In this document: in pieces, positions 28,554 through 58,373 of the stretch
Position numbering within the stretch: position 1 is the first letter of the stretch
Layout: the number at the start of each line of letters is the position of its first letter
Assembly (NCBI GenBank): GCA_014871385.1
Contig: CM026426.1
Location: 106,782,396 to 106,846,395 of the forward strand
Length of the DNA: 64,000 nucleotides
Direction: 5' to 3'
Source of the DNA: Ceratodon purpureus
Taxonomy: Eukaryota; Streptophyta; Bryopsida; Pseudoditrichales; Ditrichaceae
Translations under genes and position numbers: made by a program
Notes under the pieces: generated by a model
Database searches by the model: none
The model's input: only the letters and a program-made list of their open reading frames with translations
Told to the model about the DNA's origin: nothing

Positions 28554-28584
28554 ATGGCTGCCTCCGAGAGTGGGTAAGTTGTCC

Positions 28585-28838
28585 AGTCGGCTGTCCGCCG
28601 ACGTTCCCCTTCTTGAGTCCTTCATGTTTTGTATTTTCTCGCATGGGTTTGTCCCCCCCGTCGACTGTCTGCCGACGCCACCCCTTCTTGAGTCATTCAA
28701 TTTTCTATTTTCTCACATGGATTTTCCCCCCTGTCGGCTGTCCGCCGATGTGGGGTTTCTGATTTGGGTTTATCCCCCTCGTCGGCTGTCCGCCGATGGG
28801 GAGTGGCTGTCCATCCCCCTCGTCGGCTGTCTGCCAAT
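28585..28838. repeat. Cluster of five element-A palindromes in intron 1
   Basis: GTCGGC-N5-GCCGAC or near variants begin at 28,586, 28,660, 28,733, 28,781 and 28,822, all inside the 310-bp first intron (28,574-28,883) of the ParB-like gene. Short flanking text (CCCCCCTCGTCGGCTGTC) recurs, so the cluster probably grew partly by tandem duplication. Confidence 0.85.
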
Positions 28839-30330
28839 GGAGTGCGAATCTGATGGTCTAATATTGTGATTCTGATTATGCAGGGCGATGGTCGACCCCA
28901 CCGCAAAACCAAGTGGGTTACGGTGGCTCTGTGACAAGGTTGTTGATCTTGAAGGAAGAATAGTTGCACGGGGCTTGAAACCGAGGGTGACATTCCTCGC
29001 TGATTCGAAGATAACGGAGTGGGGCATCACCTGGCGTGACACTCCCACGTCACTGGGCTTCGTGACCAAAATAGGCCAGAAGCAAATGGCGGGTGGACCA
29101 AGATTCAGGATTATTGGAGCCAGGGAATGCAAGGATAAGGACAACGTGTGCTTGGTGTTTGCATCGGTTCCTGTCGCGGAGGGCACTCCAGTGGACTGCT
29201 TTGCGGTCGTAATTCCGGCTAAGAAGTGCATGGACAGCTTGTGCTCCAAGGAAGTACAGGAAGCGGCTCCTTGGGGCAGGGGCGAGAACACAGAAATGAA
29301 AAGTGACGACATACTCGACGTAATTGATACGCTCGGGGACAAAGTGATGGAAGAGAAGACGAAGAGCTTGGTTAAGCCTTCACCAAAGAAAAGAGGCGGC
29401 CGCAAGTCTGCTGTAGAAGCGAGCACTGGTACTGTCACCCCCGAGACCGGAGAGACACAGGCGACAGGGGAGTCATCGAGAAAGAAGAAGGGAAAGGCAG
29501 CGGCCCTTAGGGCGAGGGTGGGAGACAGAAGAGAGGTGGGAAGAAGGAAGAGAAAAAGCAGACCGTCGCGGAAGCTCTCATGCTCGCATACAATCTCACT
29601 TTCAAAACAAATGACACCGACGTCCTTGCTATGTACCAGACGTTGGAAGAGGGACTTGGGCACTGCTTTCCCATGGGGAAACGTGCCCTTCCTTGTCAGA
29701 TTCCATATGACAGGATACACATAGCTCCCGACCATTTTAAGTACAGAGCGATATTCAGGAAGAGGCAGGATCAGATAAGTCTTTTCTACAAAGGACTTGG
29801 AGCAATCCGGAAGAAGCCCGAGCTGTACTGCCTTCCTATGCGTGGTGACCCCAGAGTAAAGGATCCAGTGACGGGCGAGATTATTAAGCTTAAAGGCTTG
29901 GAAGCACTTCTTAGAGCTTTGCCAGCCCTAAATATCAGGTATTCGATTGCACAGGGTGACGGCACATTTAAGCTGGTACCTTGGTATGAAGATGAGCACA
30001 TCCACTGGTAAATAATTGGGGGCCAGCACACGTTTGAGGCTAGTCGAGAACTGGAAGAGAAGGAACCACTGGACTCTCTTATGCGGCAGTATTACCTTAA
30101 CCACGATATCATTCCTGTATATTCTGATGACAAGGATACCCTCATTAAGGTCTCTAACGCATTAAACATCAAGGTGAAGGATAAAGTCGCCGAAGTAAGT
30201 TTTAGGTCCCAGCTGGAGAAGATGCGCGCCAAATGGATCGAGAGGAGGAGGATTGACAAGAAAGATGACTTCAGCGCATGGAAGGTAATTCACATCTTCC
30301 TCTTTTCCTGTTGTTTACATGTGATTGAAA

Positions 30331-30350
30331 GTCGTCGGCGGCCCGACGAC
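30331..30350. repeat. Element-A palindrome, intron 2
   Basis: GTCGTCGG-CGGC-CCGACGAC: perfect 8-bp arms, inside the 133-bp intron 30,285-30,417. Confidence 0.85.
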
Positions 30351-31794
30351 GTTCAGATGGTTTTCCGTATGTAGAAGTGGGATTTATTTATCGATGTTAT
30401 TTTCTTCTTCCTTGCAGGAGTTCTGCAAGGAGTACCTCAGTCCGATTCTCGAAAAGTCCCCTACGTCCCAAACCTTCAAGCTGCCCTTAGTCTTCGTGTC
30501 TGACGAAACATACAACGAGTGGCAACTGGTCTTCAACGCCTAGGAGGAGGGGAGGATCATCGGGGAGGACGGTTTAAAACCAGGATTTCCCCTAAAGCCA
30601 GCCCGCCGGGACATAACGCTGAACGACATGCAATGGGTGATCGATCTTCGGGACCACGAATGCAAGAGGCTGGCCAAGGAAATTCTGGACCTTAAAGTGT
30701 ACGTCAAGGTCACTAGGAAAGAGGTGGTTCAACGAGATGGAACATCATTGGAGAATTGGTGTAAGCATGTGAAGTACGAGTATGTTGTCCGAAACGAGCT
30801 TATGTGCATTTATAGGGGCTTCGCACTTAAGAAACCAGGGACTGGGAAGCATATTGAGTGGAGCTTGGATGACTGGAATTCCCTTCAAGTCGAGAAGGGG
30901 TTCAATGATACGATGATTAGTAATATTTGGGCTGACTTGGAAGATAGTCCTGAGGGGAAGGAGTGGCTTAAGGGACGAAATCATCCGCTCACGCCGTCGC
31001 ACGGGCCAACACCCGAATTCTTCAAGGACATTGTACAAAAATATTGGAAGTCGAATGTGGACCAGTCTTCGCAGTCGTCTGTACAATTCGATGCCCGGAT
31101 TGCACAGGACTTGGGTGAAGTGTGCACAGCTCTTGACGTTCGGGGAGCGTTCTCCTTCGACAAGGCGCCGTATAAGATGGTCGTAGTCTTTGGCTACGAT
31201 CCAGCGCGAAAGGAGATGCCGAACTTGCGACAACAACACTTTCTAACTGTCGCTGAGAGGATTCAACGTGAGGTGGAGGAGGAGGTCATTCAGGTGGATG
31301 GGGAGGGAGAAACAATTAAGGTGAATAAGCTTGTCACCCCATCCTTGTGGCTACTCGATGCTGAGTCCAATTACATTCTTCAAGGCGTGTCAAGGCTGAC
31401 GGGTAGTTTGTGGACGGTGCATACTATGCAATACTTCCCTGATAGTTCCGCCGGAATTCAAAGGAGTTCTCTCATTGACTCTAGACCCAAGGTTCATGTG
31501 TCCGTTATGTATCCAAAAACAACGCCCGGGGATGCATGGAATACCTTCTCGGACTTCACTGGTTTGAAACGTCCGCTTCCTCCCTATGTGGACGAAGGAG
31601 AAGACGGTCTTGGGGAGGATTGGTCTAATGGAGACTGCCACGCTAGTTACTCTTACCTCCAATATCTTGTGGAGAAAGCGATGCAGTTTGAGGACGTTCG
31701 GGTGATCAATTGCTGAGGAGGGGGAAACGTCACGGCCCTCGCTCTGGTAAGTCACTGCTGTCTTTTTTGGTGCCTTCGCTTTTTGCTCACCGAT

Positions 31795-31813
31795 CGTCGG
31801 CGGGCAGCCGACG
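31795..31813. repeat. Element-A palindrome, intron 3
   Basis: CGTCGGC-N5-GCCGACG: perfect 7-bp arms, inside the 134-bp intron 31,747-31,880. Confidence 0.85.
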
Positions 31814-32654
31814 CTCATTGCATCCTTTGTGTTTCTTGGGTACAAGATTTCCTTAACCGTTTTGTCTTGTTCTTCTGCAGAAAAACCATTTGAATGTAAT
31901 TGAGATCATGCGTACCGAGGAAGAGAGATTCCAAGCACACTGTCGGGTTCGGAATGTGACGTTCATTCCGGGCGTTTATAACGTGCCCGTCGAAGCTCTA
32001 GTTCAGACCACGCAGTCTGGGGCCGGGCCGTCTGTCCCCGCCTCTGCTAGAGCCAGGACTGGCACTCTCACGCCTGCCGACTTGGGTGTGAATGCAGAGG
32101 AGGCCCATTTGGTCGGAAAGGGTGGATGTATGGTTTCGGGGAAGAGTGCGGGGGTTCCCTCACAGAATGTTCAGGACTCCGACGACGATGTCGACGAGGA
32201 CCCACCAGATGTACCGGACCCAGACGTTAGAGTTGAAGCTCACCTTCCAACTGGAGATGGTGAGGAACAGCCAAGAAACAAGGACGACCAAGCTGAGGCT
32301 CGCATTCCAACTGGAGATGCAGTGGTAGAGGAGAATTAAACGGAGGACTTAGACTATGAACCTGAACCCGACGTGGTACCACTGGAAGAATCGAATCCTC
32401 GTTACGTGAACCCACCGCTGTCGCAAGTTACAGGGGAGCAAGGAACTGACTCCCTCGGCTTCGGTATTAATTCTCCTACAATACATAAGCAGGAGACTCC
32501 TCTTGCCGAGCCAGAACGTGACCTAGACCAGGCGGGGCCTCGAAAGAAGATGCAGGTTCCTCTAGCATCGAGGCCTGACGATGAAGTGGTTGTCCGTGTC
32601 CATAAGCCAATCCAGGAGCCTGCAGTGAGCATTGAAGGGCCTCTTCCTCCTGCT

Positions 32655-32677
32655 GCCGTCGGCGGGCAGCCGACGGC
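32655..32677. repeat. Element-A palindrome, in coding sequence
   Basis: The arms are nine perfect base pairs (GCCGTCGGC / GCCGACGGC) around a 5-bp centre. It is read in frame as AVGGQPTA in the acidic C-terminus of the ParB-like gene. Confidence 0.87.
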
Positions 32678-32987
32678 AAACGAGCAAACCTCATCTAACC
32701 CCTCTGCCAAGTGAAAGTTGAGAGGGAAGTCAATCGCATTCGTCACTCAGGGTGTGAAGGGCGCAACTCGGATGATTGGCCCAGATGAGAACCCTCTGGG
32801 CAAGACACGAGCAGCAAAGAGAAGCAAGACCGATGGTACTGCTCAGGATTCCTCTCTTGTGGGTAACTTATCGCGTGATTCCTCAGGGGTTCAGGAAGGG
32901 GAGGAGTCCTCAAAGAAGGGCAAACGGTAGACTTTTTCGCCTACAACTTGCACTTCTTCCCTCCTTATGACCAACAGAACACCTTCC

Positions 32988-33225
32988 ATCGGCTGCCCGC
33001 CGACTTGGTCGATCCGTTTGTGCGGCCTTCAAATATATGATTTACTCATTGACCTTACGGCTATGTTTTCACGGAAATAGTTCCCCGAGTAGGTTATAAT
33101 GTGATAGGATTTACGTCAACTTGGTACATAGTGGTGGATGTAGACTTAATGTTGTAGGACTTAATGACTCAAAGTGCTACGGGACTAGTTAGTTTAGCGT
33201 GTTCTGTTATCGGCGGGATGCCGAC
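32988..33225. repeat. Two element-A palindromes downstream of the gene
   Basis: ATCGGC-TGCCC-GCCGAC at 32,988-33,004 and ATCGGC-GGGAT-GCCGAC at 33,209-33,225, both beyond the stop codon. A weaker version (GTCGGCTACCCGCC) lies at 35,943. Confidence 0.75.
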
Positions 33226-35130
33226 TCTGTATTGTACATTTAAATACTTGAATCAACATGATATTCTTTAAAGTATTCATTGTAACTCTTATTCTGCATC
33301 ATATGTCGCAATCTTCGGGTTCATATATCCATCACTGGCAAATTCCGCCCATGCACATATCGATGTCCAGTTTTGCATTCCATATTCTGTGGTATTCATG
33401 TACAATGACAGTGTTCATCTGTGGTCTCCATCCATCGGCGCTCCGCTGAGTTCGCATTTGTCATTTTTGAATTCTGGACTTCTTTTTGTCCAAAATTATC
33501 TAAATATCCCTTTCATGTTCGTATTCACTGTGATTATATTGTTCTAGACACAAAAGTATGCCTTCAAACAAGATAGTACTACTCTGTGAAACACAGTATA
33601 TACTGGCGATTATATTTGGTCGGCAAATTTCGTAGAATTAACTGAAAACTATCTCTTACAATAAGTGCAAGTAGGCTATTGAGAGCATCACCAATCGTCT
33701 TGTTAAGCACACATGCTAATGGGATTAGCAGGCCTTCGCCAAAAAAATTGCTCCGATTTACTCTAGATCGACCTCGCTATCCTCGCGAGCCACGGCAAAC
33801 ATGCCCCGCTCTTGCCAAATTTTCTTTGTATAGATGGAGATAATTTAAACACTCCAAAACCAGTGAATGGTTGCTTCTGCCCAAACATAGGCACCAAGGT
33901 TTGATCCGAGGACTTCTAACCGCAATGGCATTGGGGCTTCCGCGCTCCGTTGTATCACGCACCTCAATGGAAAACTTGCCAAGGCCCGTTGGAGGGGGAT
34001 CTTGGCGAGTTACGATTGGGGATGCCCTGAGGATTGATTAAAGCTAAGATTATAGTACCACATGCGGGTATATGTATTAAACATGTATATGTATTAATAA
34101 GCCTTCAAATGGATTGGTTTAATTAGGGGTTTTTTCCCTTTATTTAAGTACTGTTTTCATATATTAGTGTGTGTTTTTAAAAACTATATGTGCAAGCAAG
34201 TGAGGTACGTACATGTGCTAGAGGTACAATCACAAGACGGAGGGACTGCCATTAACTCACGGAAGTTGCGTTCAATTGGAAGTAGATGCATTTGAAAAGA
34301 CTAGAAGTGCAATGCCTGAATTGCAGCTGGTGCCGGATATCGGAATCATACACAGTCCTAAGGTCTTCAGTGTGTCGTAATTAGCTAGCAGGAGAGCCTA
34401 ACCTAGTGCCGACTACAGGAGAGCCTAGCCTAGTGTATATTGCATTTACGTCCCTATTACTATATACGTGGAGAAGGCTATACACATCGACAGATTGTTA
34501 CAAAATGTGGAATTATATAATAGATATAAAAATCAAATTTCCCATCCTGTTTGATTTTCTTTGTTCGCCCGGCCCTGCATTCTAAGGAGAACTTGCTCTT
34601 TCCATATTACACAACTCTAGGTAAGTTGTCCATCAAGCGCGTAGAGCTTACGACGTTAGCAAAACATTCCCATTAAAAGTTACACAAAAAGAGGATTAGC
34701 AAACAATGTGGGTTATTTACAGTGAGTGCAGAAGCAGATAAATTATCCGACACTGATTCCTTCCGTCCTAGTTTGTCTGCAATGTCGTCAACCAACAGAG
34801 GACGGGCAAGGGAACTAGTCCATGACGTCAGCCTCTTGTCGGACTCTTGCGGTGGGCCAGCGACGGCTATTCGTGACTGCCGGACGGAGTCCGGGGAGTT
34901 CTGTGAGCCATCCAGCAGATTTCCTTGTAACTTTCAAGCACCTCGGTTTTCTTCAAAATTGCCCGGAAGTGTGCCTGGAAGTTGCAAAACTGCCCGGTTA
35001 ATGTCCTAGAAGTTCATTTCTCTACTGGTGGCATTTCCGCCACTGTAAAATTCCAATCGGAAAAAATCCTTCAAATGAGAATTGCATTCGGTTTCATTTA
35101 TTTTTTTGTTGTTTTGCTTAGCACATAGCT
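33226..35130. other. Non-coding stretch downstream of element A
   Basis: AT-rich sequence with no supported gene. It contains one probable MITE (33,683-34,030). I could not find a terminal repeat marking the right end of element A. Confidence 0.5.
33683..34030. mobile_element. Probable MITE, PIF/Harbinger-like ends
   Basis: The ends are imperfect inverted repeats: AGAGCATCACCAATCGT on the left against the reverse complement of ACGATTGGGGATGCCCT on the right. GGGCATCCCCAAT-type ends are common in PIF/Harbinger MITEs. No coding capacity and no clear target duplication. Confidence 0.45.
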
Positions 35131-35200
35131 GGCTGCTATATCCCTGGCAGGATTCGAACCTGGCAGTGCCCCTACCAATTTAGGGCCAGCGATTTAGCCT
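35131..35200 (-). repeat. tRNA-like (possible SINE) fragment
   Basis: The minus strand carries a perfect B-box-like GGTTCGAATCC and, about 25 bases upstream, an A-box-like TGGCCCTAAATTGG. The boxes are too close for a full tRNA and the T-stem has a mismatch, so this is at best a tRNA-derived relic. Confidence 0.3.
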
Positions 35201-35270
35201 TCCTAAAATGATTCAAAATTATTATGAATTCAGATTCTCAATTCTCAATTCAACAACTAAAGATTCTCAA

Positions 35271-35425
35271 GCCAGTGACCTGGGGTGCCTGAGCCAGTGA
35301 CCTGGGGTGCTTGAGCCAGTGACCTGAGGTGCCCAATCCGGTGACCTGGGGTGCCGAAGCTAGTGACCTGGGGTGCAGGAGCCTGTGACCTGAGGTGTCC
35401 ATTCCGGTGACCTGGGGTGCCAAAG
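35271..35425. repeat. 22-bp tandem repeat, seven copies
   Basis: The unit GCCAGTGACCTGGGGTGCCT plus two bases is repeated seven times with small changes, ending ten bases before the MITE flank. Confidence 0.9.
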
Positions 35426-37431: not shown

Positions 37432-40027
37432 CTATCGCGATGAAGAATCGTCGTCCATGCCATGGTCATCTGCGCTTTCACCAGCAAGTCTGCGAGGTGA
37501 CCTCCCACTCCGAGCTCGTTTATTGACGTTCTGCTCCAATTCAAAGTTCCTCCGTTTCGGTGTCCCGCCGCTCCTCTCCTCCGACACACTTTGCCGTGGC
37601 GGTGTCCCTGGTGGCTTGGTCGGAGACCCTGGTTCACTACAACTCGATGCACCTCCCTGGTGCCTTAGAACACCTGGAGACGACCTATGGTCTTTAACCG
37701 CTAAAGCCCCGCTTCCAGCCGCGGGAGTAGGAGAGGGTGACCTCGTAGCTGGCTTGCCAACTGAAGGACCAGGAGACCTGTCCCGAAAAGGAGAGGCATC
37801 TCCTTCCTCGTCCTTCACTGGCACCTTGCGCACCCTGTCCTTCCTCTTCTCCAGGAACCGAGCGAGGGAAGCCTTCCTTGCCTGGGGTAGTTCAACTGGA
37901 TATCACGAACACAGCCAGTTAACATAAGAACATCCTCGAACCCGACGCTCAAACCAATCGAGTAGCTTGAATTCGAAACGAAAAAAGAAACGGAAATATA
38001 CCATGAAACGAGGATGATAAAGTTAAGGCAGTTGTACCATTCTGTATCGGTCCAGGTCGAACGTTCGAGAAAACCACTCCCGGTACCACAGAACGAGGTG
38101 GAGCAGCAGCGGAAGTTGTAGAAGCTTGCGGAGCAGGTAACCCTGGTGCGGACAGTATTGACTGTGGCACAGCCATAGGAGCAGAAAATGGACGTGCAGG
38201 AACAGCACTCGCAGGTGGGTTCATGTAGTTCGTCGACCATGTGTTGCCACTGCCAGCTAGAAGCATGATAGCTTGAGCCTGCACGTATCCAACCACAGCA
38301 TGAGCAACGGAGGACCAACAGAATTACATACAAAATTTGTACAAAAGTCGGAACTGAGATAAAAAATAAAATCCCTGTAACTCACCTTGTCGAAAGGTAC
38401 ATCATCGTAGACATTGACCATGCCTGCATAAAAGATTGTCAATTGTGCTGTGCGAGGTTGCTTGCCCAATCCTGCAGATCTGTAAAACCAGAAAATGACG
38501 GAACATATTACTTTAAGAGACACGCCAGCCATTAAATCAGACCTTGAGTGGCAGCCTAAGAGATTTAAGAAAGAAAAACGAAAAATACAACGAGGTGCTA
38601 ATGAACACCTTGGTAAGTTTCCAGCTTGGACTGAATGTTGCTGGATTGGCGGCCTCTTGCCAGCCATTGCCGCAGCTCCATTCTCGGCACTACTGGCCTG
38701 TCTCGATCTACAGTAAAACGGCGCTGAAGAACCGAATCCACCTTGGTTTGAAGGTGGTTGCGGTTGCGTTGCAACGTGCTCAGTACCAGGTTCGTTTCTG
38801 ATCGGCGAAGAGCGAGCACCTGCGTTCTGCATGCCCCTGGACGCTTGCTGATGGCCGACATACATGGCTGCCACCTTCCGAGCCTGCTCTCTGTGCAAAA
38901 ACGCGTCGTAACGGCTTGCGTTGCCTGCCTGCCATGGTTGAGAAAAGAACATGCGTAAGCTCTGGTTAAACTTCACATACTGTAGAGTGAAATTTCATTC
39001 GCGAACTCGCTAATTACGACGCCATTGTGGCTTAGGAAGACTGAAGCAACGACTTACAGACTCTGACTTGTCCCACTGCAACAACGGTATGTGATGTGAA
39101 TTCAGAGGGCCATCTGTCGACTCCCTCTCCCTCTTAGGAGACACGATGGCCTTGATGGTGTTCTCCTCGTCTGCCTGAAACCTTCCAGCAACGGGGACTC
39201 TGTTCCAAGCGTGCTGACGTAGGCCTGTGCACAAGAAGCCAAAAAATCAGAAAATAGTGTCAAAGATAGATCATTGTTAATTAAAGTATGGTCATCTCTC
39301 CAACTCACAAAAGTACTCCGAACACAACTTATAACATCACAGTTAGTGCATTAACGTGCCCTCATCCATGGCTTGGCCGACATAAACTTCACTATTTTCT
39401 CCTCCTCACGATCATTATCAGGCCCTTCAACAGACTACGATATGCCACCCGCCCGTCCAACTGCAACATCAAGAGTCTTTTAAGCCCGGTACTAAGCATT
39501 TGCATAAAACGACCCCCTCGCACGAGCTTCTATTCCTTCGAGCCCGATAGTCTCGCCGGGGAGTTTTAAAAACCTTCCCGAACTATGATACGCAACTAGT
39601 TATATACATTAGTGACATGCTAATCACACTTAAAAAACCACTTGGAATAAAAATACTAACTGCGCCACATTCTAAATAGATCGACCACCACAAAACAAAG
39701 AAATCCCACACTCCCAGTAACATCGGAACAAGAACACCGTCTCCGACAGTCACCACTCCCACTCCCGTCCACACTAACATCAAACTAAATCCCCCTTGAA
39801 GAGCATCGATCGAAGACCAAGAACAATTTCAAGAGAACAAGAAGGCTCTGCGATGCAAACGGGTGGTCACCTTCCGGAGCCAGCGATATCCTCGCCCCAC
39901 CTCCGCTGGGAATGGGCCTCCGAAGTCGCACTCGCTCCTCGCTGCCGCCATCTAGCGAACTCCCATCATCTGCAGCTGCTCCTCCCACTCCCACTCCCAT
40001 GAAGTCCACCGCTACAGCCTCCTCCAT
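37432..40027 (-). CDS. JAZ: JAZ repressor (TIFY family), jasmonate signalling, six exons
   Basis: JAZ proteins are nuclear repressors that bind MYC-type transcription factors, recruit NINJA/TOPLESS through the TIFY domain, and are degraded through COI1 when the hormone is sensed. Exons on the minus strand are 39,871-40,027, 39,058-39,224, 38,609-38,928, 38,386-38,479, 38,002-38,278 and 37,432-37,895. Together they give 1,479 nt, 492 codons plus TAG, all GT-AG with matching phases. The TIFY domain (about residues 215-262) has an exact TIFYAG followed by VNVYDDVPFDK and AQAIMLLAG, split by an intron. The Jas motif (about 340-360) reads SLARFLEKRKDRV. The N-terminus (VDFMGV) resembles the DFLGL-type start of JAZ3-like proteins. 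The C-terminus is Pro/Ser-rich with KRR and KRARSGR basic patches. No stops or frameshifts. It is the only clear host gene here. Confidence 0.95.
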
Positions 40028-40028
40028 C

Positions 40029-40255
40029 TCCCTCTCCCTCTCCCTCTCCCTCTCCCTCTCCCTCTCCTCCCTCTCCCTCTCCCTCTCCCTCTCCTCTCCC
40101 TCTCCCTCTCCCTCTCCCTCTCCCTCTCCCTCTCCCTCTCCCTCTCCCTCTCCCTCTCCCTCTCCCTCTCCCTCTCCCTCTCCCTCTCCCTCTCCCTCTC
40201 CCTCTCCCTCTCCCTCTCCCTCTCCCTCTCCCTCTCCCTCTCCCTCTCCCTCTCC
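40029..40255. repeat. (GGGAGA)n microsatellite in the JAZ 5' region
   Basis: About 227 bp of nearly pure CTCCCT hexamers on the plus strand (GGGAGA on the JAZ sense strand), beginning within a few bases of the start codon and so probably in the 5' untranslated region. GA-rich tracts are known binding regions for plant BPC proteins and are length-unstable. Confidence 0.93.
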
Positions 40256-43781: not shown

Positions 43782-43870
43782 GTTCGTGGATAAAAATCTT
43801 CAAGTTTGACGGACTTGTTTTTCCACTGTCCATTTTATTAAATTTAAAATACTTCTAATGGTGAATGCAG

Positions 43871-44831: not shown

Positions 44832-44950
44832 GTAAAAACATCTGTCCTAAAATTTATTCTATTCTTTCAGATTGTATGCGTCTATAATCTTTCTAAGGTC
44901 CTACTCTTACACTGTGCCTTCTCTAAATTGCTTTGTCTCTCTATCTCCAG

Positions 44951-45940: not shown

Positions 45941-45965
45941 TATGCCATATTTAACTATTTCTGGA
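45941..45965 (+). repeat. Element-B left terminal inverted repeat
   Basis: 25 bp starting TATGCCATATTTAACTATTT, matching the inverse of 63,089-63,113 without mismatch. Confidence 0.9.
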
Positions 45966-46020
45966 TTGTCCAGAGTCCAGAATTAAGTAATCACCTATCA
46001 TTAACCTGATAAATTTAGAG

Positions 46021-46990
46021 CATTGGCGTAACAATGTATGGGAAGAACCGTGGTGGAGGGGCTCAGAAGTATTCATCACGGGATCTCTCGACACCAAACT
46101 TGACCAAGATATAAGTACATTGCAAGCGAGATATAAAAGAACAGAGGACATTTGGGCTCTAGAGTATGTGTCACGAGATCCTCCAATAGCAAACTTGACC
46201 CAGATAATTATACGTACATTGCGAGCAAGGAACGGAAAACAGAAGAGATTTCGGCTCTACAATATTCATCACGGGATCCCCAGCAGCCAACTTGACCGAG
46301 ATATACGTACATTGGGTTTAGGGTAATACAAAAGAATAGAAGAGATGGGGGCTCAGATTTATTCATCGGGGTATCCCGCGATATCAAACTTGAACGAGAT
46401 ATCAGCACATGGCGAGCACGATACAGAACAGTAGAAGGCATGTTGGTTCAGCATTGTTTTGGTCACGGGATGCCCCCAATATCAAACATGAACAACATAT
46501 TAGACATGGGAAGCAGATTCGAAATACATCTACAGAAATGAAATATCATTGACAGGAGGAAGGCAGGTATTACACGGAAGCCTGACGATCCTTCAAGCAT
46601 GGATGAATTTGATGTCATTAACAGAAGATCAGGAAGAGAATTAACTCAAACGGACTCGTCGTGGGATCTCCCGATGTCGTACCTAAACGGCATAAAGGAT
46701 CTCTGATCAAAAAACTTATCTCCCTATACGTTTGCTAACGCAGATTCCATGGCTATCTTAGGAATGGTTCTACTCCTCGGATCCATGATCCACGACGAAG
46801 TTGCATACACCACTGCATCAACAGTGACCCACAGAAGAAAGGAAGAGATGTGGGCTCGGAAGTACTCTACTATTCATCGGGGGATCCCGCGATATCAGAG
46901 TTTAATGGGATATCACATGGCGAACATACAATGAGGTATAGGGCCTGCCGGCTCGGAAGTGTTTTTCACGCAATACCCCAATATCAAACA
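46021..46990. repeat. Element-B left subterminal array
   Basis: Degenerate units of about 97 bp. Palindrome-derived cores start at about 46,074, 46,170, 46,267, 46,366 and 46,462, and further copies lie at 46,657, 46,875 and 46,966. Each unit shares text such as AAACTTGACCGAGATAT and ACGTACATTGCGAGC. The best cores (46,366 and 46,875) read CATCGGGG-ATCCC-GCGAT. No gene. Confidence 0.85.
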
Positions 46991-47585
46991 TGACCGACAT
47001 GTTATATTATGAAGCAGATTTGAAACTATTCTAGACTTGCTACTACTAAATTTATTCTAAACTATGGAAATATTAGAATACGAAATATACAAATATGAAA
47101 GCATCAAATGAACCTCTGTTTTTTATTCAAAGCAACTCTGTTTTAAAGGCATTCCATTCCAAAAATAGTTCACAATCCACACGAGGGACACCTTCGGCAA
47201 GAGTTACAAAAAGATGAAAGTGATCTGTTTTTACATCTATGGTTACCAAACATCGTAGGATACAACAGTCTTGCTAACTACTTCCTAAAGTCCCCTTCCG
47301 ATATCTGAGCTGATTAGCAGCAAGAAGTTAAACATGTGGAGTATATGGAAGATGCCTGCAAGTTCAGAAACAAAGAGAAAAAGAGGATCAGATGGTATGA
47401 AGTTTAGGGTTTAAAACCAACAAGTGGAGGTCAAAAGCACGGACTCATCCTCTTGACACTCACCACGAACTCAGCATCAGGCAATGGAATTCTGCGCAAG
47501 ACATACAGCAACCGTAATCTATTACTATGAAAACATCAAACAAAGGGCGAGCTTAAGGGTTATGAGGAGAAAACATTTCACCTCG

Positions 47586-47924
47586 TCACTGATGTGGTGG
47601 GCTCCCCAAATCCCGGCTCTCCTCCTCATTTGAATCAGCTATAGAGAAGACCTCCCCGGAGGTGAGGGGAAACTTGATGTCAGAAGCGTTCATAATCTCC
47701 ACTTGCTCAAGACCATGTGCAAGAGTCCAATCCCACTCCACACTAGGCTGCATTAGGCGTGCAATGCGGTTCCACAGGGGAATTGCTACACCGCGACCAC
47801 GGGCGCGTTCCACCGCCATAAACCACGGACGAAGCTCCTCCACTCCTTGTGGGAAAACCACCGGCTCCCACTTGTCTGGCGGGTAACTTGACACCCTAAA
47901 ACCACCGCCCGCCCTCCTCATCAC
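47586..47924 (-). pseudogene. Possible last exon of the element-B DUF7869-type gene
   Basis: A minus-strand frame of about 110 codons with Trp-rich segments (PDKWEPVVFPQGVEELRPW) and an acidic end. It lies between the left array and the DUF7869-type gene, in the same orientation. No known domain; it could be a separate small gene. Confidence 0.35.
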
Positions 47925-48362
47925 TACAAATGAACTAGAAGCAGTTGAAACAAAAGGGAAACTGAAGTTGGAACAACTATTTTGTCGCGCTAAGGAACTT
48001 ATGCTTATGAGGGGGCATATTATACTGTGAAGTAGATATGAAACTCATACAGAAACAAACATCATTGACACGAGGAAGGCAGATATTACACGGAAGCCTG
48101 AGAAGCGGTCAAGCAGTGATGACTCTTATTTCTTTAATAGAGAATGAGGAAGACAGGTGACTCAGATGTAATCATCGAGGGATGTCCGGATGTTGTTCCT
48201 AAATGGCATAGAAGATCATGGATCAACTACGTTAGCTCTCTCTAAGTTTGCTAAAGCAGCTTCCATAGGAATGGTTCTAGTAGACGGGTCTTTGATTTTT
48301 GACCAACTTTGAAACAAAGCTGCACCAACAGAGACCCACTCCGGAGCACGCGTCTCTACTAC

Positions 48363-50782
48363 CTACTTAGCAGACCAACAGTTATGGTATTTTAATGCAA
48401 GGTCTCTTTCCACGCTACAAGGTTCCCAAAACTGAATTAGAAATTTCCCATGGTTTACATGGCCTTCCTCTCTACATACAGCAGTCGCTGCTCTTCCCTG
48501 CCATACAGGACAAATGAGTGGATCTTCAGGTCTCAAAAGAACCCGGCTGCCACGCCGAATATCATGCCAGGGATTGAAAGGACTCTCCGGAGTTTGGTTT
48601 GCTGGGCCACAATACGCTTCTAGTTCCTCATCCTCAGGAGTCACATCCTCAAGTAAAAATTGTAAAAATCTTGGGCGCGGTACTCCGTTGGATACGTCCC
48701 TCCAGTCATGGCTTGGCCAGAAACCCTCTAACAATTCAGGATTTGTCACTACCACAGGCTTATCAAGCTCAGACAACAAACGAGTCCAGTAGTCAACATA
48801 AGGCCCAAAAGCTGCTGCAAATCCCTCGCATTTTGCCATTCCATTTTTCTAGTACTCAATGTACTTTTGGAGTCCGCACTTCATGAATTTCTTGTTTTCA
48901 GTAGCTTTGGCTGCGGTCTCTCTTGCCTTCACCTGATTCCCAATAGATTTAGGAACCTCACTTCCCCACATAGGTTTGAACGGAACCAGCTTTGGTGAGC
49001 CGTGAGGAAGTTTTGGGCCGCCATCCATGTTTTCATTCCACAATCGAATAGGGGGTCTGTTGAGGGGTAGCCATTGTGCGTCGACGGCTGATTTCTTGTA
49101 CCTCCTAACCGGCCAACCATCATCGTCCACATAGAACTTGAAAAGGTGCATCTCTCTAAGTCCAATAAGGCATGCTGCACCACTACTTTGATAGCCTTTG
49201 ATGAAAGACTTGAAGTCTGCAACCTCTTGAATGAACTCCGGCATGAATGACAACTCCTGGGACTGCATGAAGGCCTTCATTAGATCCGCTAGAACAAACA
49301 TATTCTTGCTTTTTAATGCCTTCGACAAATGGCTAAAATAAGCGTCAATATCTTCGTGCGTATGACCCACTAGTAGAAATCCGGCCTGAATTTCCTTGAA
49401 AACACCCCGTGCAGTCAGCAGGGAGAGAAACGCCATGAGATATTGGTTCTTGTTATCTTTGGCGGAGTTATCCAGCTGAAGGTATAACTTCCTCGGTAAA
49501 GGTTTAGACCCTTGGACATCGGGGGATCCTTTGATACGCGGTAAATTGTCGAGGCACCTAGACTTCCTCCTCAACAATGTCTCGAACAGTGAGTTTTGCG
49601 GGGGGTACTCAAATAGTTTCCCAGACTTCCGAAATGAGGGGCCTTCCAGTCTACGGATCAACCTCGCCAACGACGATATTGTGGCGTTAGAATATCCTGG
49701 CCCCACTGAGGACAGTAATGTGCATAGGCGCCATCCCCGTGCCCATGTGAAACCATACCAGTGACGTTCATAGGAAGTTGGCCCAAACCTTGAGTAGCCT
49801 TTGTTGTAACCCGCATCGGGGGAAGGGCGGTTTTTGCAGTATCCATCTTGACATGAATAATGCACAGAATCTCACTGGGATTGCGCTTTGATTCTTCGTG
49901 CCATGCGCCATACAGACGACAACAAGAGGCTTGGTGAGCAAGATGCTCGTCCCTGTTGCTTCACGAAGTCAACATATTCTGGACTTCCGTTAGCTGACTT
50001 CAGAATGAATTCTTGAAGTTGGTCACATGTCGAGCATTTCGCAAAAGAACTTCCAACCGGTTTGATTGCGATATTGTTGAAGAGTGAACTTCTAATTCTA
50101 CTAATTGTAGACTGGCTCACTGTAGGCAGACCTAATGAAACATTTGTGTGCAAAGCACCAGAACGACCAAATGGCTTCTGAGGCAAAGAAAGAGACGCAC
50201 GCAAGCGAACAAGCTCGAAGTATTACACGACAAATTATGACAAATCACCGAAGACGGGAAAAAGAGTTATATATTGCATGACGTAGGTAGAGTGCAACGA
50301 TACTATAAGACAGAGAACTGACTGTTAATACGAAAGTAACCTCTATCAGGAGATCTCCCGATGCAATGACACTAGAGGACACGCGAAGCAAAGACTTGTA
50401 ACTCATTGGCGTCAGCCATCACTCGCTTCCAGTTGTTGCCTGCTGGAAGATAATTCAGAGTGTCCACTCGTCCATTTGCGATTCCTCGCATTTGATGGGG
50501 CACTTGATCTGCATTCTCGTCTACAATAGCAGCAATAGTACCCATGACTTGAACTGTTCCGATCCTCGGTCGCTTGTAGCCCTTGTTTCCATGCGCTGTT
50601 GGGAGAACCCCTTTGTTGTATCTTTGGACATAGCTATGAAAAGTTGACTTGGGAACTCCGTGAATAAGATACCACGCACTTGCGCAAACTTCCAAACCAT
50701 GCAGCGTCAAGTATTTCCTCCTACGGTCACCGTCGACTGAATGCATCTGTCCACCCGCCGCAATCCCGTATTCCCGTCTTTC
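48363..50782 (-). pseudogene. DUF7869-type gene of element B, frameshifted
   Basis: This is the homologue of the element-A gene. The first visible exon starts after CCTTTCAG at 50,782 and has the family's usual N-terminal block (KYLTLHGLEVCASAWYLIHG, later AHGNKG). A second (from about 50,185) has a Cys pair (FAKCSTCDQL). The core reads CIIHVKMDTAK (about 49,860), LQLDNSAKDNKN (about 49,470) and VGHTHEDIDAYFS (about 49,350), then about 190 more residues absent from the truncated A copy. One TAG (48,849) separates the core from a C-terminal part with GSRVLLRPEDPLICPVW. Frameshifts lie near 49,950 and near 49,710-49,725. By position and the three acidic blocks it is the best transposase candidate for element B, which is my inference. 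Confidence 0.7.
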
Positions 50783-51161
50783 CTGAAAGGATTTTGAATA
50801 GAATTTCTGACGCACTATTAGTGTGAGCTCTTGGGGAAATATCACTGCCAGAGTCCATTCTGAAGAGAGCCAAAGAAGTATCCGGGGATCTCTCGATGAG
50901 GGTCTAAATTCTATTGGATCGAGTGATCTCTCGATAAGGGTCTCTCGAGACTATTTCCAATGCAGTACCGAGGGATCTCTCGATGAGGGTCTAAATTCTA
51001 TAGGATCGGGGGATCTTCCGATGGGGGTCTCTCGATGAGGGTCTCCAAAGAAGTATCAGGGGATCTCTCGATGAGGCTCTAAATTCTATAGGATCGGGGG
51101 ATCTCCCGCTGAGGGTCTCTCGATGAGGATCTCCAAAGTAGCATCGAGGGATCTCTCGATG
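50344..51161. repeat. Element-B palindrome cluster upstream of the DUF7869-type gene
   Basis: One site at 50,344-50,363 (TATCAGGAGATCTCCCGATG) and at least seven between 50,882 and 51,161, several in a repeated context (GAGGGTCTAAATTCTATAGGATCGG). The last, CATCGAGGGATCTCTCGATG, is at 51,142-51,161. Confidence 0.85.
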
Positions 51162-52239
51162 ACGATAATTGGGTCCACTAAGAAGCAACCTCCACCTCGC
51201 CACCCCTGTCCGTATAGTAAAATTTCCACAAGAACACGTCATCACATAAATGAGGTTCATTCCACCAACATGCATCATGCAAGGGTTAATCTTAACTAAA
51301 CATTCCCCGATTACTTTGCAAATTCCCGCGGAGAACTACATGAACAATTCTACTTACAATAGGGGATCCCGCGATGGATCACATAATCAGCACATGTAAC
51401 GTGTACAGGAGATAGAACACACCATTCAAGAGCAATAAAATAAACCCGATTGACAAAAGATCTTCCAAGGAAAGACCAAAATACCTGCGCTCCCTGCGAA
51501 TGTAATCGGCCGCTCTAAACACCCAAGCAGGTGCTCCCTCCGCCTCCTCGAATGCTTCTCCGGCACCTCAATTCCATCCTCGGTCCCCCGCAACCCTTCA
51601 ATCTCAGGTTCTACCACCCGTCTAAGGTTCTACCACCCGTCTACGACATGCAATGTTGCAGGAAACTCGTACTCTAAAACGCGCTAATGAAACAACTCTG
51701 AGGAGACTGCTCTGAATTCATGTGAATGAATCAGGAGATGGCGGTCCAGCAGACAATTCAAAGGGAGAATCCCTGCCAATTCAGAAGGGGGAAACAAGAT
51801 CAAGCCCTTCAGGTTTGAATTCGAAGGGAACATACGTGTCATGATGCATACAGCATCCAGTAGTACTTTTGTGAGGGTGGTTTCCATATCATGATGCAGC
51901 GCCACTCGATCTGTCCCCCCTACTTCTGTAGGAGTGTCCATATCATCACCTGGTCCACTATTGTACGATAGTCGCTCTCTACGAAGGACCAAGATGTATT
52001 TATATGTCAAGATCTGTTACATAAATAGCCACTCCAGGGCATGATTTATTAGACTCACGTACCACGTCCTCTAAGCAACATATACAATATTTACATACAG
52101 TAATGTCCATAGGAACACTAAATTTGTACTGAATACCATTCAGTTGTACCTAATATGCTTCCAATGCGTACAGGTTTATGTTCCCACACTTTTCATGGGA
52201 GTGTTGGCGTAATAGGTGCTTTTCTGAGTTCGAGCTTGA

Positions 52240-52306
52240 AGGTTCAGGGTTCAAGGTTTCAGGGTTCAGGGTTTAAGGGTTAGGATTTAGGGTTTAGGGT
52301 TTATCT
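52240..52306 (+). repeat. Interstitial telomere-like repeats
   Basis: Degenerate GGTTCAG / GGTTTAG units ending in AGGGTTTAGGGTTTA, the Arabidopsis-type plant telomere repeat. Confidence 0.75.
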
Positions 52307-52371
52307 ATTTTTGAATTTTTGAGGTCACATAAATCTTTGGAGGGTCTATCTAATTTACACACCATTCAAAT

Positions 52372-52402
<31 letters not shown>

Positions 52403-53399
52403 CTGAAGTCACACAAAACTCGTGAGGGTCAATATAGTTTATGGTGTCCCAAATTTAACGTGCTACATAGTTGTTTGGTAACTTATGTATTTTTACGGTA
52501 GTATCAAATCTAAAACACCTTTCATTTTTTTTTTGGATGATGGTAGTACATCGCATTATTACTTTTTTATATTCATTCATGTGACCTTTCACGTTTTGAA
52601 AATGAGTCATACGTTATGAAAGTTCGCTGCAACTTTTCAAACTCAGCCGTGACTCTTCAAAACGTGAATTTTTAATCGTGCCTCTTTGTAATTTTCTAGG
52701 GATTTAATGTACTTCCATTTAAAATACGGTGCGTCACAAAGTAAAAATTGAATTCAATCTGAATTATGATGTGAATGGTTTATGTATTTAAGTCACACAT
52801 GTAAGTAATTTCTTTAAAAAGCGTTGAAGTAACGTTGTATAAAAATGCTAAATATTAATTAAGGTATTTTTATATCACCTAACCTTTGTTATCAATGATT
52901 GTAATTTATAACGGGAAATTTTCTGATAACATGGTACTTTAATTTATAACGGGAAATTTTAAGAAGATAATATAAGGGTAAAATGAATGACTTAACAGTT
53001 CGCGTGAAACTAATTTCAAAGAAAAATGACTTGCACCATTTTCTTTTTAAAAATAATAATTTCATAATGAATCTTGTTGAATCTACTATGAGTCTGAATT
53101 AATCAAGTATGAAAACAGGAGGGTGATTTATAACTTACAATATATCAATAGTGGTTGCCACTTTAGTAGGTATTCAAATGAAAATTATATATAAATAAAA
53201 GTTAATGGTGGGTTTTTGAGAATGGTAGAGTTATAATCCATGCGCGGTACCATGTGGATGACGGTAGGACAACGTATAAGAGGAACTCCATATTAGTTCT
53301 TCTAGCTCCAGGTTTATTTATCTGGGAGTATCTATTATTGCATCTTCTATGTGACATAAATCTCTTGAGGATCTACCTAATTCATGAAATCTCGAAAGG

Positions 53400-53790
53400 C
53401 ATTCTCCATATTATTAATTGTTTTTAATTTCATTTTTCTTTTATATTTCATTCCCGTCTCTTTTAACATGCCATTTTCTTTTCCACCATATTGCATTCCC
53501 TTCTCTTTAATTTTTCATTTGCTTCTCTTTTATCTATCATTCCCTTATCTTTTATTTTTAAATTTGCGTTTTCTTTTATGCCCGTGATATTATTATTTCC
53601 TATTATGATTTTTGTTTTGAATTCTTATTCAATGTAATTCCCTTCTCTTTTATATTTCATTTGGTTTCTCTTTTATATTTGATTTCTTATTTTTTATTTT
53701 TAGTTTTTTAAATTTTTAATTCTCATTTACTCTTTAATCCCATTAAACTCTTTTAATTCACTTCATTCTATTTTATATATTTTTTTTCGT
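53400..53790 (+). repeat. Pyrimidine-rich degenerate tandem tract
   Basis: Repeated CATTCCCTTCTCTTTTAT-like units of about 25 bp with strong T/C strand bias, directly upstream of the transcribed part of the ParB-like gene. Confidence 0.6.
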
Positions 53791-53859
53791 TATTCTGAAT
53801 ATTCTGAATATCCCCGGTCAGTCCGCTTGCCGTGACTCTTCCGTATCGAGGGGCTTAGG

Positions 53860-54477
53860 TTGTCGTGGGAATTCGCTTCCGTGTGTCGATTTGCGAGGGA
53901 GATTCAGGGCGATTCAGAGCTGGTTGGCAGGTTTAGGGCGAGTAATTCTTTTCCTCTCGGTCTAGGGCGATTAAGAGGTGTTTGGGAGGCGAGTGAGAGG
54001 TGTTTTTTTTTGCATTTGGTAGGTGTTTGGGAGTGGCATTCTCTCTGGATCGAGGCGGAGCTTTTGGATCGGGGGGCGGACAAGGAAATCGGATCGTCGG
54101 AGCGGGATTTGAGGAGGAAGACGAAGCAGAGGACGAGGGGTTTTCCACCTGCGACTGCATTCGCAGGTACTGTTGCGTACATTCTTTGGTCAATTGGGTC
54201 TGTGTCTCCTCTTTTGTGTTTGCAGTTGCCAATCTCTCGCATAATTGCTCGAGTCTTATGCGTTGGTATGGTTACTTGCATTGTTGGAACGAGTAGAGGG
54301 AGCTGAACTTAAAATTCGTCACAATGTTTGCTCCTCTAAAGTGTTCTTTTATTTCTCATTCTCATTTTCTGTTTACAATTTCCTGTGCATCGTGCCATCG
54401 CCGTGCAGAGTTTGCAGGCAGCTATGGTAGGCTGTTCATCCACAGGGCCAGGGACCGCAAGAATCTGGGAGGACCCG
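53860..54477 (+). other. Possible 5' exons of the element-B ParB-like gene
   Basis: GC-richer sequence with a good donor after ATTCGCAG (54,167) and a second possible exon from CCGTGCAG (54,408) to CCC|GTAAGT (54,477). The reading frame across these joins does not match the next exon, so I treat them as transcribed leader or exons of uncertain coding status. Confidence 0.35.
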
Positions 54478-54831
54478 TAAGTTTTTTTCTTAATCTCAAA
54501 TTCTATGCTTAGTGACATTTTTCCTTTACCACATTTGGAAATGCAGTAGTCCCTGTCCGTCTTATAATGAGGAGCAACATTAAGAGAGGTGCTGTGACGA
54601 GCATTCTCTTGGTATTGTAATTGGTTTCCGTAGTGCGACATGACCTTGTAGTGTAACAGAGTAGGACTATCCACATCCATATAAACCCAATTCCTAATCT
54701 TATTCACTTGAAACCCTAAGCTTCAAACATAAACTGTACGGACCAGAGAACCATACCCTACACAATGCACTCTACGGACAGTGTAACTTGCTTCAGTGAT
54801 CCATTGATGCATGAATAAAATGTCCTTGGTC

Positions 54832-55461
54832 CATCGGGGGATCTCTCGATGCATCAGTATCCCCTTTCCATTCTGTGGGAACGGCAAGCCATCGGGAGAT
54901 CTCCCGATGACCTATTCACTTGAAACCCTACTCTTTAACTATGTATCCCGTAATCAAGGAAACCTCACCCTGAACAATGCACTATATGGACAATGTTAAT
55001 ATGATCATGAGGAAGGAATTGATGCATTATGCACATGTCCTAGGTCCAATCGGAAGATCCCTCGATGCGTCGGTATCCCTATTTCATTCTGTTGTTACAG
55101 CAGAACATCGGGGGATCTCTCGATGACCCACTCACTAGAAACCATATTCATAAAACATAAACTAATAACCAGGTAACCCCACTATGGACAATACACTATA
55201 TGGACAGTGCTAATTGCATTTGGGATCGCTTAATGCTTAGGTATCATATCCTTGGTCCATCGAGGATCCCTCGATGTGTTAGTATACCCTTCCCATCCTG
55301 TGGGTATGGCAGAACATCGGGGGATCTCTCGATGATCTCATTGCTCCTTTCGTCCCTCTGCTTTTTTCAATGGTCCTCCTTGATAGTTGTTGTCATGTAA
55401 GTAATGCACATAGCCCCTCATGCGTGTGTATGAATCAAAGTCATTGACAGATCCCCCGATG
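54832..55461. repeat. Three ~213-bp tandem repeats, each with two element-B palindromes
   Basis: Palindromes start at 54,832/54,890, 55,048/55,106 and 55,258/55,315, each pair 57-58 bp apart, with a seventh at 55,442. The copy at 54,890-54,909 is the perfect palindrome CATCGGGAGATCTCCCGATG. All lie in the intron that ends at 55,533. Confidence 0.9.
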
Positions 55462-55533
55462 ATCCGATTTGTATAACTGTTTATTGATTTGGAGCAAGAA
55501 TTTGACCAACAGTGGTGTATGTGTGTACTGCAG

Positions 55534-56849
55534 GGAACAACAAGTATTGGAACCACCAAGTGACCACAAACCCCTGAAGTTGTACCCTTTTATTGATAGT
55601 TGGATCCATGGCTTCAATTTCGATGGTGAATCAAATCCCTGCGCAATCTACCGCTGCGATAAGAACGTCACAGCATGGGCCATATCGTGGAAGGATACGG
55701 CAGGAGGCATGGCCGTCATTGTCCCCCATCTCACTTGTGATTCGCAGATCCATTCCCCGATTGGATTCAACGTTCTCGAACTAAAAGGCCTTGACGCGGA
55801 GACATCTATCATGGTGGTGGAGAAGAAGATCCCAAAGTCCGATCGGACTGTAACTTATGGACTGATCCTCGACCTCTGCAAGCTCAGCCTGATTCACTGT
55901 GCATCCCTCACTGCTAAGGGGTTCATGTACTTGCCGGAGGATGAGGCGAAGTGGACTCCGGCACATATTGAAAATCAGTGGAACCAAATCCACGAGGCGC
56001 GCAGTGAGGCTGCACTTGCTGCTCTTGGTCAATCGCAGGCTCCAACTGCGTCTACTCCTACCAAGACGCGGGGCACAAAACGGAAATCATCCTTAGTCAA
56101 TGACGGGGAAACTGCGGTGCCTGACACAGGGAAGGGCAAGAAGGGAAAGGCTGATGACAAGCTTACTCTTCAGCAGTGTGTGAGAATGTCAGCTTTGGAT
56201 ATTGAGAAGCTGGACAAGACCAAACGGTCAGAGATGAAGAACTTGTACAGCGAGGCTTTTGAACCCCTGTACAGGTGGGGCCACAAGAGGCTGAAGGATG
56301 AAAAGGAAGCGCCAATAACTGTGCATTTCTCAAAGCTGCACAGGGCCCCTTCAGGTACCTACGTCTACTGAGGACTTATTGCGGAGAGGTTAAAAGCCTT
56401 GACGAAACAGGCGAGCATCGCTCCGAGGTACAGTGGAACAGATAGAGATATCACTGTATTTCCACTGAAGAGGGGACCGTATGGAGAAAAAGGTCTCGTA
56501 GAGTTTTTAAATAAACCTCCGGAAAAGAATCAGATAAAGAGCTCCACGAACTTCTACATCATCGGGGGCCAGCATACGGTTTAGTGTTACCAAGATCTCG
56601 TCGAAAGTGGCGAAATTGATGGGGCTGACAAAGACAAGGCGTCGAGGTTCTCAATCATCCCAGTGTGGGCGCCCAATCCTGAGCACATCAAGCTCATGCT
56701 CCTCTCACGTGTCTAAAACCAGGATATGGCCGGCCCACAAAAGGAGCATACATTCATGATGCAGGTGCTCAATGCCCAAATCAAGTGGAAAGAGATGAAG
56801 TGTCCGATGCGAGCTTTAGAGGGACGGCAGAACCCTAAAGAATTCAACG
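55534..56849 (+). pseudogene. Element-B ParB-like gene, ParB-domain exon
   Basis: The exon follows ACTGCAG at 55,533 and ends at AAC|GTAAGT (56,849, phase 0). The N-terminal 170 residues correspond in position to the element-A N-terminus (AWAISWKDT here, EWGITWRDT there). A Lys-rich linker follows, then a ParB/sulfiredoxin-like region with FYIIGGQHTV and a following SIIPVWAPN segment. In ParB proteins the matching GxxR-type loop contacts the nucleotide; here it reads GGQH, so CTP binding is uncertain. Stops at 56,369 (TGA), 56,582 (TAG) and 56,714 (TAA) break the frame, which otherwise continues unshifted. Confidence 0.6.
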
Positions 56850-56869
56850 TAAGTCTGTATTCCCTCCCT

Positions 56870-56963
56870 CATCGTGAGATCCCCCGATGATCCGAGTTGT
56901 AGAAATGTTTGTGGCCTCTTAGAGTATTCCTCATACTTCTCATCATCGGGGGATCCCCCGATG
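56870..56963. repeat. Two element-B palindromes in the intron after the ParB exon
   Basis: CATCGTGAGATCCCCCGATG at 56,870-56,889 and the perfect CATCGGGGGATCCCCCGATG at 56,944-56,963, inside intron 56,850-57,018. Confidence 0.92.
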
Positions 56964-57018
56964 GCAACTTCCTCATCGGAGAGCGCTACTAACCCCTCCC
57001 CCGACGTGTGGTATGCAG

Positions 57019-58373
57019 GACTTTGTTCCAACTCTCGCATCGATCTTCACAAACGTGAAGGAATCAGAGCTAAGGGACTACAAGATACCTCTACTGTTTA
57101 TTGAACACGACACGGCCGTTGACCGATGGGTGGAGATTGAGAAACAGTACATGAAGGGGAAGCTGCCAGATGCGCAAGGGAATGTGCAGACGAACTATGA
57201 CCTCAAGCGTAAGTCTTTTGTCCAGAATGACCTAAAACCGCTATACGGCCTGCGCTCAGAGGATATCTACTACCTTGATGACCTTGTGGAGAGGAAAGAA
57301 ATATCTATGAAGGGCTCCAAGGCCACCAAAGGTGATAAAGTGGCAAGAATATCGTCCCTTCAAGCAGCAGGGACTAGGGAACGATTGATCAGACTCATGA
57401 AGAACGAGTTGATGAGCCACTTCTTGGGGTGGGAGCTTCCAAGCCGTAAGAGCACGTATGTAATGTATCCTGCACATGAATGGGACGAGTATGCCGATTT
57501 GAAGTCCATCACTTGCGCGGAGCTGGAGAGCTGGCTCGATAAGGCGTATGCATTGGCTGCGGGGAGGAAGTGGTTGGATGAACGAAAGAAGAACCTCAAC
57601 AAGACGTCTGATCCTGCGGACGTGCCTGACTTTGTTAAGGTGATGTGGGACGCACACAACATGGTACAAGAGCAAGCAAGTGTAGCATTGCACATCTAGA
57701 GGGGGTTCGAAACAAAGTACAAGTGCATGGTTACGGAGAGGATTAGGCCCGACATTTCTGGCCTTCTAGGAAGTGAAGAAGTGTATCAATGGAGAAGAGG
57801 GGGAAAAATACACATATTCATGTACTTCCTGTTTGATGCGATCGCTGACATGCCAGTGAAAGCTCAAGTGCTCGCCGAGAACAGGCTGAATCGGATATTC
57901 GATCCTCTAGAAGGCCAGGAACGAAACAGTACGCAGGTCTTTGCACGCTCAGGAGAAGTTTCTTCACAGATGCGGCGGAATTCCATGCCACACTTATGCA
58001 CCTTGAAACGCGCACGAGGACAGTAAAGAGAAAGTTGTGGAACTGGCATGTGATCCTCTACGTCCCTTCCCGCGAGGACGGATTTCCCGAGCCAGAGGTG
58101 GGTTCTTCGTATGTTGTGTATATGATTTTCTACTTCGCTTATTCGGCAACGCAGTCGACGAAGGAATGCTACGGGGATTTCTTTGCACGGAAGAGGCCAT
58201 TTGACGCAGTGTACCTGGCCAAAGACATTATGGAAACCATCTAGCAATGGAAACGACCTGGTCGACCAACGATTAAGCTGGCCGCGTTTTATACTCTCTT
58301 TCAGCAGCCCATCAAAGATAACATGATACTTGTAAATGTCAACGGCGGGGCTCACTTCACCCACCTTGGACTT
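57019..58373 (+). pseudogene. Element-B ParB-like gene, second large exon
   Basis: The exon starts after TATGCAG (57,018) and reads DFVPTLASIF. It ends L-G-L|GTAAGT at 58,373, in phase 0, like the matching element-A intron after T-A-L-A-L. The end has an NVNGGAHFTHLGL block that aligns with the methyltransferase motif-I-like block of element A. Breaks are TAG 57,697, a frame change between about 57,895 and 57,940, and TAG near 58,242. The middle (57,100-57,660) corresponds to element A 30,430-31,060 by order and length, with only scattered identities. Confidence 0.55.

Follow-up and report, generated by a model that had tools for sequence, protein, structure and literature searches.

The elements and their families

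The window analysed here is a stretch of 64,000 nucleotides from the moss Ceratodon purpureus (G000:C6:106782396-106846395; genome of 362 Mb in 151 contigs). It holds decayed copies of two giant DNA transposons, elements A and B, each with a gene for a DUF7869 protein, a long gene for a protein whose predicted fold resembles ParB and sulfiredoxin (Srx), termed here the ParB-like protein, and many copies of a short palindrome. With a third family, C, they make up three families in which a ParB/Srx-like transposon protein is paired with palindromes private to the element. That A and B are mobile and encode homologous proteins was part of the original prediction, made from the sequence of the window, and this stands; the extents had to be corrected, to 25,372 to near 33,512 for A and 45,942-63,112 for B. 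Both ParB-like genes in the window are interrupted by in-frame stops.

Family B was sampled in six further copies (C3, C6a, C6b, C6c, C8 and C11). BLAST delimits a common unit of 22.2-22.8 kb (about 22.7 kb) in C3, C6b and C6c, the copies read at both ends; C8 has a right-hand truncation, and C6a and C11 were read without their right ends. Identity is 96-99% in long blocks and falls to about 86% in repeat-rich parts. The left end is ATGCCATATTTAACTATTTCTGGACT and the right end is its inverted repeat. The check for 4-bp target duplications covered C3 (TCTT), C6b (ACAT), C6c (ATGA) and the window copy (ATGT), each of which has one. In copy C3 the DUF7869 gene (Pfam 3.3e-44) is divergent from the ParB-like gene, whose four modelled exons together give about 1,410 codons of open frame, and two open reading frames (ORFs) for NIF/FCP1-like phosphatases (Pfam 1.1e-16 and 1.5e-4) lie downstream of the latter.

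Family A has the same gene set (DUF7869, ParB-like and NIF phosphatase, the last with NIF E 5.7e-12) and inverted ends related to those of B. A full-length copy elsewhere measures about 15.8 kb with the target duplication GCAT, as seen in the single copy with both ends read. Family C was discovered via transposase matches at 61-65% identity. Its left end is ATGCCACATTTAAGTAAATCTGGAC, the right end differs by one base, the duplication in one copy is TATG, and the genes seen are those for DUF7869 and the ParB-like protein only. The DUF7869 gene and, divergently oriented to it, the long ParB-like gene are present in all three families, and the inverted ends agree between families in 19-21 of 25 positions, one end per family being compared. 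Inverted ends and a target site duplication were found in all six copies with both ends read. By their anatomy, A, B and C can be classed as giant terminal inverted repeat, cut-and-paste DNA transposons, with A and B as high-copy sister families. The DUF7869 protein is the probable transposase; in the transposase ORFs scanned with Pfam, DUF7869 was the sole domain above the cut-off, and no Mutator-type transposase was found.

Among the matches listed, fragments included, 98 of 122 DUF7869 matches of families B and C are on contig C6, which represents 30% of the assembly. This contig (110.5 Mb) is presumably the V sex chromosome; a U-named protein sits on a 112-Mb contig. The NIF/FCP1-like phosphatase ORFs of families A and B, of the carboxy-terminal domain (CTD) type, lie downstream of the ParB-like gene, at L014:1130-1804, L014:2296-2928, L029:9137-9874 and window 61878-62513. 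A tandem array of about 127 bp units lies between the divergent genes of copy C3 (L013:372-2200); its length differs among copies, and it carries no B palindromes at <=2 mismatches.

Palindromes private to each family

A de novo search found one dominant palindrome per element, CGTCGGCGGNCNGCCGACG in A, ATCGRGRGATCYCYCGAT in B and ATCGTAGGATCCTACGAT in C, where degenerate letters summarize the sites; the palindrome matrix was built from three of the six B copies, C3, C6c and C6b. The exact B 20-mer CATCGGGGGATCTCTCGATG occurs 418 times genome-wide (205+213), the exact A 19-mer CGTCGGCGGGCAGCCGACG 479 times (235+244) and the exact C word 723 times. All three reversed controls gave 0. The B and C palindromes share the frame ATCG-NNN-GATC-NNN-CGAT, found 3,415 times genome-wide vs 9 for the control, a degenerate pattern that also picks up simple ATCG repeats.

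The original prediction held that each element carries its own palindrome, and the distribution of sites agrees with it. In a scan of the whole window, the 13 A-type sites (<=3 mismatches) are confined to 26.8-33.0 kb and the 31 B-type sites (<=2 mismatches) to 46.3-63.0 kb, and the segments 1-25.2 kb and 33.4-45.9 kb contain no site of the three types at <=2 mismatches. Five base shuffles gave an average of 0 sites at <=2 mismatches; a looser B pattern gives scattered matches outside the elements and in shuffles. Chance palindromes can be set aside, as the reversed controls and the shuffles at <=2 mismatches gave none. In elements fetched from the genome the types are unmixed: B copies have 41, 37 and 36 B sites, a C stretch has 21 C sites and an A stretch 14 A sites, and all cross counts are 0.

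Palindrome type was also expected to co-vary with ParB-like subtype over the genome, and it does so in three families, in the fetched elements and the places listed. Among the first sites listed, a ParB-like match of the same family is listed <=13 kb away for 96 of 100 in B, 48 of 50 in C and 57 of 100 in A, and on those contigs none is near a listed ParB-like match of another family; for A and C, part of the listed ParB-like matches was used, extended for contigs carrying B and A sites. The lower A figure comes at least partly from the extent of the listing, as most of the other A sites are spaced in the same way. Palindromes abundant outside the elements were not found among the places listed, barring four B sites (C1:129183/129314 and C3:25049562/693) and two C sites (C1:21737481/565) with no listed ParB-like match. 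Eight C sites flanking one B copy coincide with a listed decayed C match.

Of these places, the one inspected, the stretch L001 around C1:129183, carries five B-type palindromes and is about 80% similar to the region upstream of the ParB-like gene, the following exon being mostly unmatched; it is an older or non-autonomous relative of the element. Inside a family C element, at C1:6634911-6634928, there is a site, ATCGTGGGATCCCACGAT, in which both half-sites are altered symmetrically.

Modelled exons are largely free of sites: 39 of 41 in B, 20 of 21 in C and 10 of 14 in A lie elsewhere. Are they by-products of tandem duplication, without function and hitchhiking in the elements? Many sites are indeed within tandem units. 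However, a comparison of ten distinct 88-bp units from fetched B copies gives 2.5% variation at palindrome positions and 11% in spacers (3.2% vs 12.8% in the 22 units before removal of identical ones). In the decayed window copy, three units, kept separate from these ten, show 9.3% and 9.6%, i.e. the palindromes are conserved above the spacers in the fetched copies and not in the decayed one. Sites are also found outside arrays, at matching places in three families. An absence of function seems most improbable.

The ParB-like protein

A and B were proposed to encode homologous proteins related to ParB/Srx. Homology between the two is evident: the window has IIGGQHTFEASREL near 30,012 in A and FYIIGGQHTV near 56,552 in B, and intact relatives of the two have IIGGQH in common and are 24% identical. 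The relationship to ParB/Srx, for which profile and structure searches had been suggested, holds at one of the two levels. The predicted structure has bacterial ParB, Noc and KorB as its best match, in one model of modest confidence (a domain-only fold model has a predicted local distance difference test score, pLDDT, of 45), and profiles gave no ParB match. From this predicted fold we infer that the long protein may be a homologue of ParB/Srx. A search of PDB sequences with the protein gave nothing informative, and a relative of P0020 was not confirmed in viral contigs.

Identity between families is 20-28% for the ParB-like exons, and for the DUF7869 part it is 54% between A and B and 61-65% between B and C. 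Within six B copies, with codons of one difference counted, the ratio of nonsynonymous to synonymous differences (pN/pS) reaches 0.37 in one of the two main ParB-like exons and 0.45 in the other, against 0.18 in the DUF7869 ORF. By these values the proteins are under selection, and the ParB-like protein evolves faster.

What might bind the palindromes?

Palindromic sites suggest a dimeric binder. The restriction of sites to families, together with their presence at the starts of both genes and inside introns, points to an element-encoded regulator of the element's own copies. We tentatively favour, at somewhat less than even chances, the following reading. The many palindromes, concentrated upstream of both genes and in introns, would be bound, privately to each family, by the ParB-like protein that the element itself encodes, probably as a dimer with one half-site per subunit. 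Dense binding would mark the element's own copies and, by activation or by removal of silencing, keep them expressed, in the manner of the VANC protein of VANDAL transposons. In sister families the protein and the palindrome would diverge together and so remain private, and the DUF7869 protein would act on the similar inverted ends. Binding of the palindromes by the ParB-like protein is plausible; its role as binder, the dimer and an activating outcome are the inferred parts. Activation or anti-silencing is favoured over repression, assembly of a transposition complex or partition because VANC represents the nearest mechanism with experimental proof.

The N-terminal region of the transposase might instead bind the palindromes, as subterminal or enhancer sites for a transposition complex; subterminal repeats help build such a complex in CACTA/EnSpm elements. 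Some B sites are indeed <1 kb from the element ends. In copy C3, however, the sites are packed most densely in the interior, upstream of each of the two genes, and other clusters lie in introns. The inverted ends, which are the expected transposase sites, are alike between families although the palindromes change, and the ParB-like protein is the most divergent between families and hence the better candidate binder. The transposase as binder is considered unlikely.

Another possibility is that the palindromes are operators through which the ParB-like protein represses element genes and limits copy number, the model being KorB of plasmid RK2. KorB, which is among the structure matches, is labelled a transcriptional repressor. 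The dozens of sites, extending into introns and 3' parts, would nevertheless seem to exceed what operators need, and this role is rather unlikely.

In a further, also minor possibility, the transposon group would have recruited a ParB-fold protein that loads and spreads, or bridges, from the private palindromes and forms a self-marking chromatin domain that defies silencing, with palindrome and protein diversifying jointly into mutually blind families and with help from the CTD-type phosphatase.

Several results weigh against taking the protein literally as a ParB that spreads from parS sites. No ParB match was obtained with Pfam on 26 relatives of the protein, with PHROGs and NCBIfam on four of the proteins, or with hhalign, using a shallow profile, against six ParB/SopB sequences. 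Canonical ParB has a Box I, GERRxRA, whose arginines contact nucleotide, and a Box II, ENxQR; Spo0J carries GERRFRAA and ENLQRED. The moss consensus at these positions is IIGGQHTV and SRVLNQDxAG, and the arginines of both boxes are absent. There is no ParA-like gene among the Pfam matches of the ORFs scanned, which cover part of the exons. Against the favoured reading, the fold is that of one model, and the co-variation comprises three families, with the sites of B and C related in frame. The long N-terminal region of DUF7869 also diverges between families (37-46% identity), which makes it a candidate binder. Lastly, P0026 is 34-35% identical to the B protein and its relative P0004, and its translated tail would fit a B-like palindrome, a hint that the site type may persist as the protein diverges.

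Some of these findings bear on a true parS-like system, with nucleotide-dependent loading at the palindromes and sliding or spreading for the pairing or maintenance of copies. The predicted fold matches ParB, and bacterial ParB sites are inverted repeats that can be clustered or scattered (PMC5016525). However, Box I reads IIGGQHT and not GERRxRA and thus lacks its arginines, ParA-like genes are missing from the matches above, and an integrated element would have no need of partition. Such a system is very unlikely.

Relation to known systems

How selfish DNA marks only its own copies and thereby escapes silencing has, to our knowledge, been worked out in detail for few elements. VANDAL elements belong to the Mutator group. 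In Arabidopsis they encode VANC, a family-specific, fast-evolving protein associated with short noncoding motifs in upstream tandem repeats and introns, with sister motifs for sister families and with loss of methylation (excerpts of PMC5735166 and PMC10398659). The moss system is similar in that the motif is family-private and dense in noncoding DNA of its own copies, in the fetched elements and places listed; sites are in tandem repeats upstream of genes and in introns, motifs differ between sister families, and the protein evolves fast. It differs in that the moss sites are palindromic, whereas the VANC21 motif YAGTATTAY is not, and in that a ParB-likeness is not ascribed to VANC in these excerpts. 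The mechanism has experimental proof for VANC, whereas binding and anti-silencing in the moss are predictions.

A precedent for ParB-like accessory proteins in giant transposons of eukaryotes comes from Ectocarpus. Sola1-1_Ec32, of 21.5 kb, encodes on the strand opposite its transposase a protein with ParB-like and DNA methyltransferase parts, proposed to bind its own transposon, and similar proteins of green and red algal relatives are cited (PMC12477816, in part). The moss elements are likewise giant, with the ParB-like gene opposite the transposase gene, but no methyltransferase domain was found in the moss ORFs scanned, and dispersed palindromes are not mentioned for Ectocarpus in the sections of PMC12477816 at hand. 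Target duplications of 4 bp are shared with Sola2 (PMC3627910, in part), a likeness that is not diagnostic alone.

With bacterial ParB-parS, Noc and KorB, the moss system shares the predicted fold and palindromic multi-copy sites; it differs in the lack of a sequence-level match, of Box I/II arginines and of ParA in the ORFs scanned, and in being a eukaryotic integrated element. The report of the Lanisha DNA transposon reportedly shares authors with the Ceratodon genome project. Unlike Lanisha transposons (cited in PMC12730594, as excerpted), the DUF7869 core has no C(2)C, judged by eye with assumed catalytic residues.

The ParB-like protein and the private motif each have precedent, and a description of the pairing with family-private dispersed palindromes was not found among the best-ranked matches in open-licence PMC, including those of a search on DUF7869. 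A single moss that harbours three sister families, each with open-frame copies, offers a ready swap system of three proteins and three palindromes. If correct, the favoured reading, self-marking by the ParB-like protein, would give a eukaryotic case of sequence-specific self-recognition tied to the ParB/Srx fold.

Other features of the window

Table 1. Features of elements A and B, in window positions
Feature	Position	Strand	Basis
Element A copy, left-truncated and internally deleted	25372..33512	none	BLAST vs L029/L035/L036; right inverted end 33,488-33,512
A, DUF7869 gene, probable transposase, partly deleted	25372..27502	-	Pfam PF25273 E 1.2e-43; intact-looking copy L029
A, palindrome cluster, five sites, just upstream of ParB-like gene	28585..28839	none	Site scan
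A, ParB-like gene, first coding exon, broken	28876..30284	+	Aligns with L029:4778-6160; exon end by eye
A, ParB-like gene, second exon region	30420..31716	+	ORF list; exon start by eye
A, ParB-like gene, acidic 3' exon region	31857..32714	+	ORF list; L029:7731-8942
Decayed element B copy, complete between its inverted ends	45942..63112	none	Flanking 4-bp duplication ATGT
B, DUF7869 gene, probable transposase, split into ORFs	48366..50950	-	Pfam PF25273 E 8.8e-38
B, 88-bp tandem units with B palindromes, upstream of DUF7869 gene	50870..51162	none	Repeat and site scans
B, palindrome cluster upstream of ParB-like gene	54833..55460	none	Site scan
B, ParB-like gene, broken exon encoding the ParB/Srx-like domain	55534..56849	+	Ends by eye
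B, ParB-like gene, second exon	57020..58373	+	Ends by eye
B, ParB-like gene, acidic 3' exon	59273..60530	+	By eye vs C3 model
B, 57-bp tandem units with B palindromes	60688..60819	none	Repeat and site scans
B, second NIF/FCP1-like phosphatase exon	61878..62513	+	ORF; C3 counterpart Pfam NIF E 1.5e-4

Next to element A there is a 5,266-bp inverted duplication with arms that are 99.92% identical (window 8822-14087 and 20102-25367). It ends at 25,367, and the truncation point of element A follows 5 bp later; each arm carries a Ty3-like piece and a 598-amino-acid ORF that looks, by eye, DDE-like. Between the elements there are a (CTCCCT)n array and an array of 22-bp repeats (window 40022-40255 and 35268-35425), and several ORFs of 122-346 amino acids (window 41914-44835).

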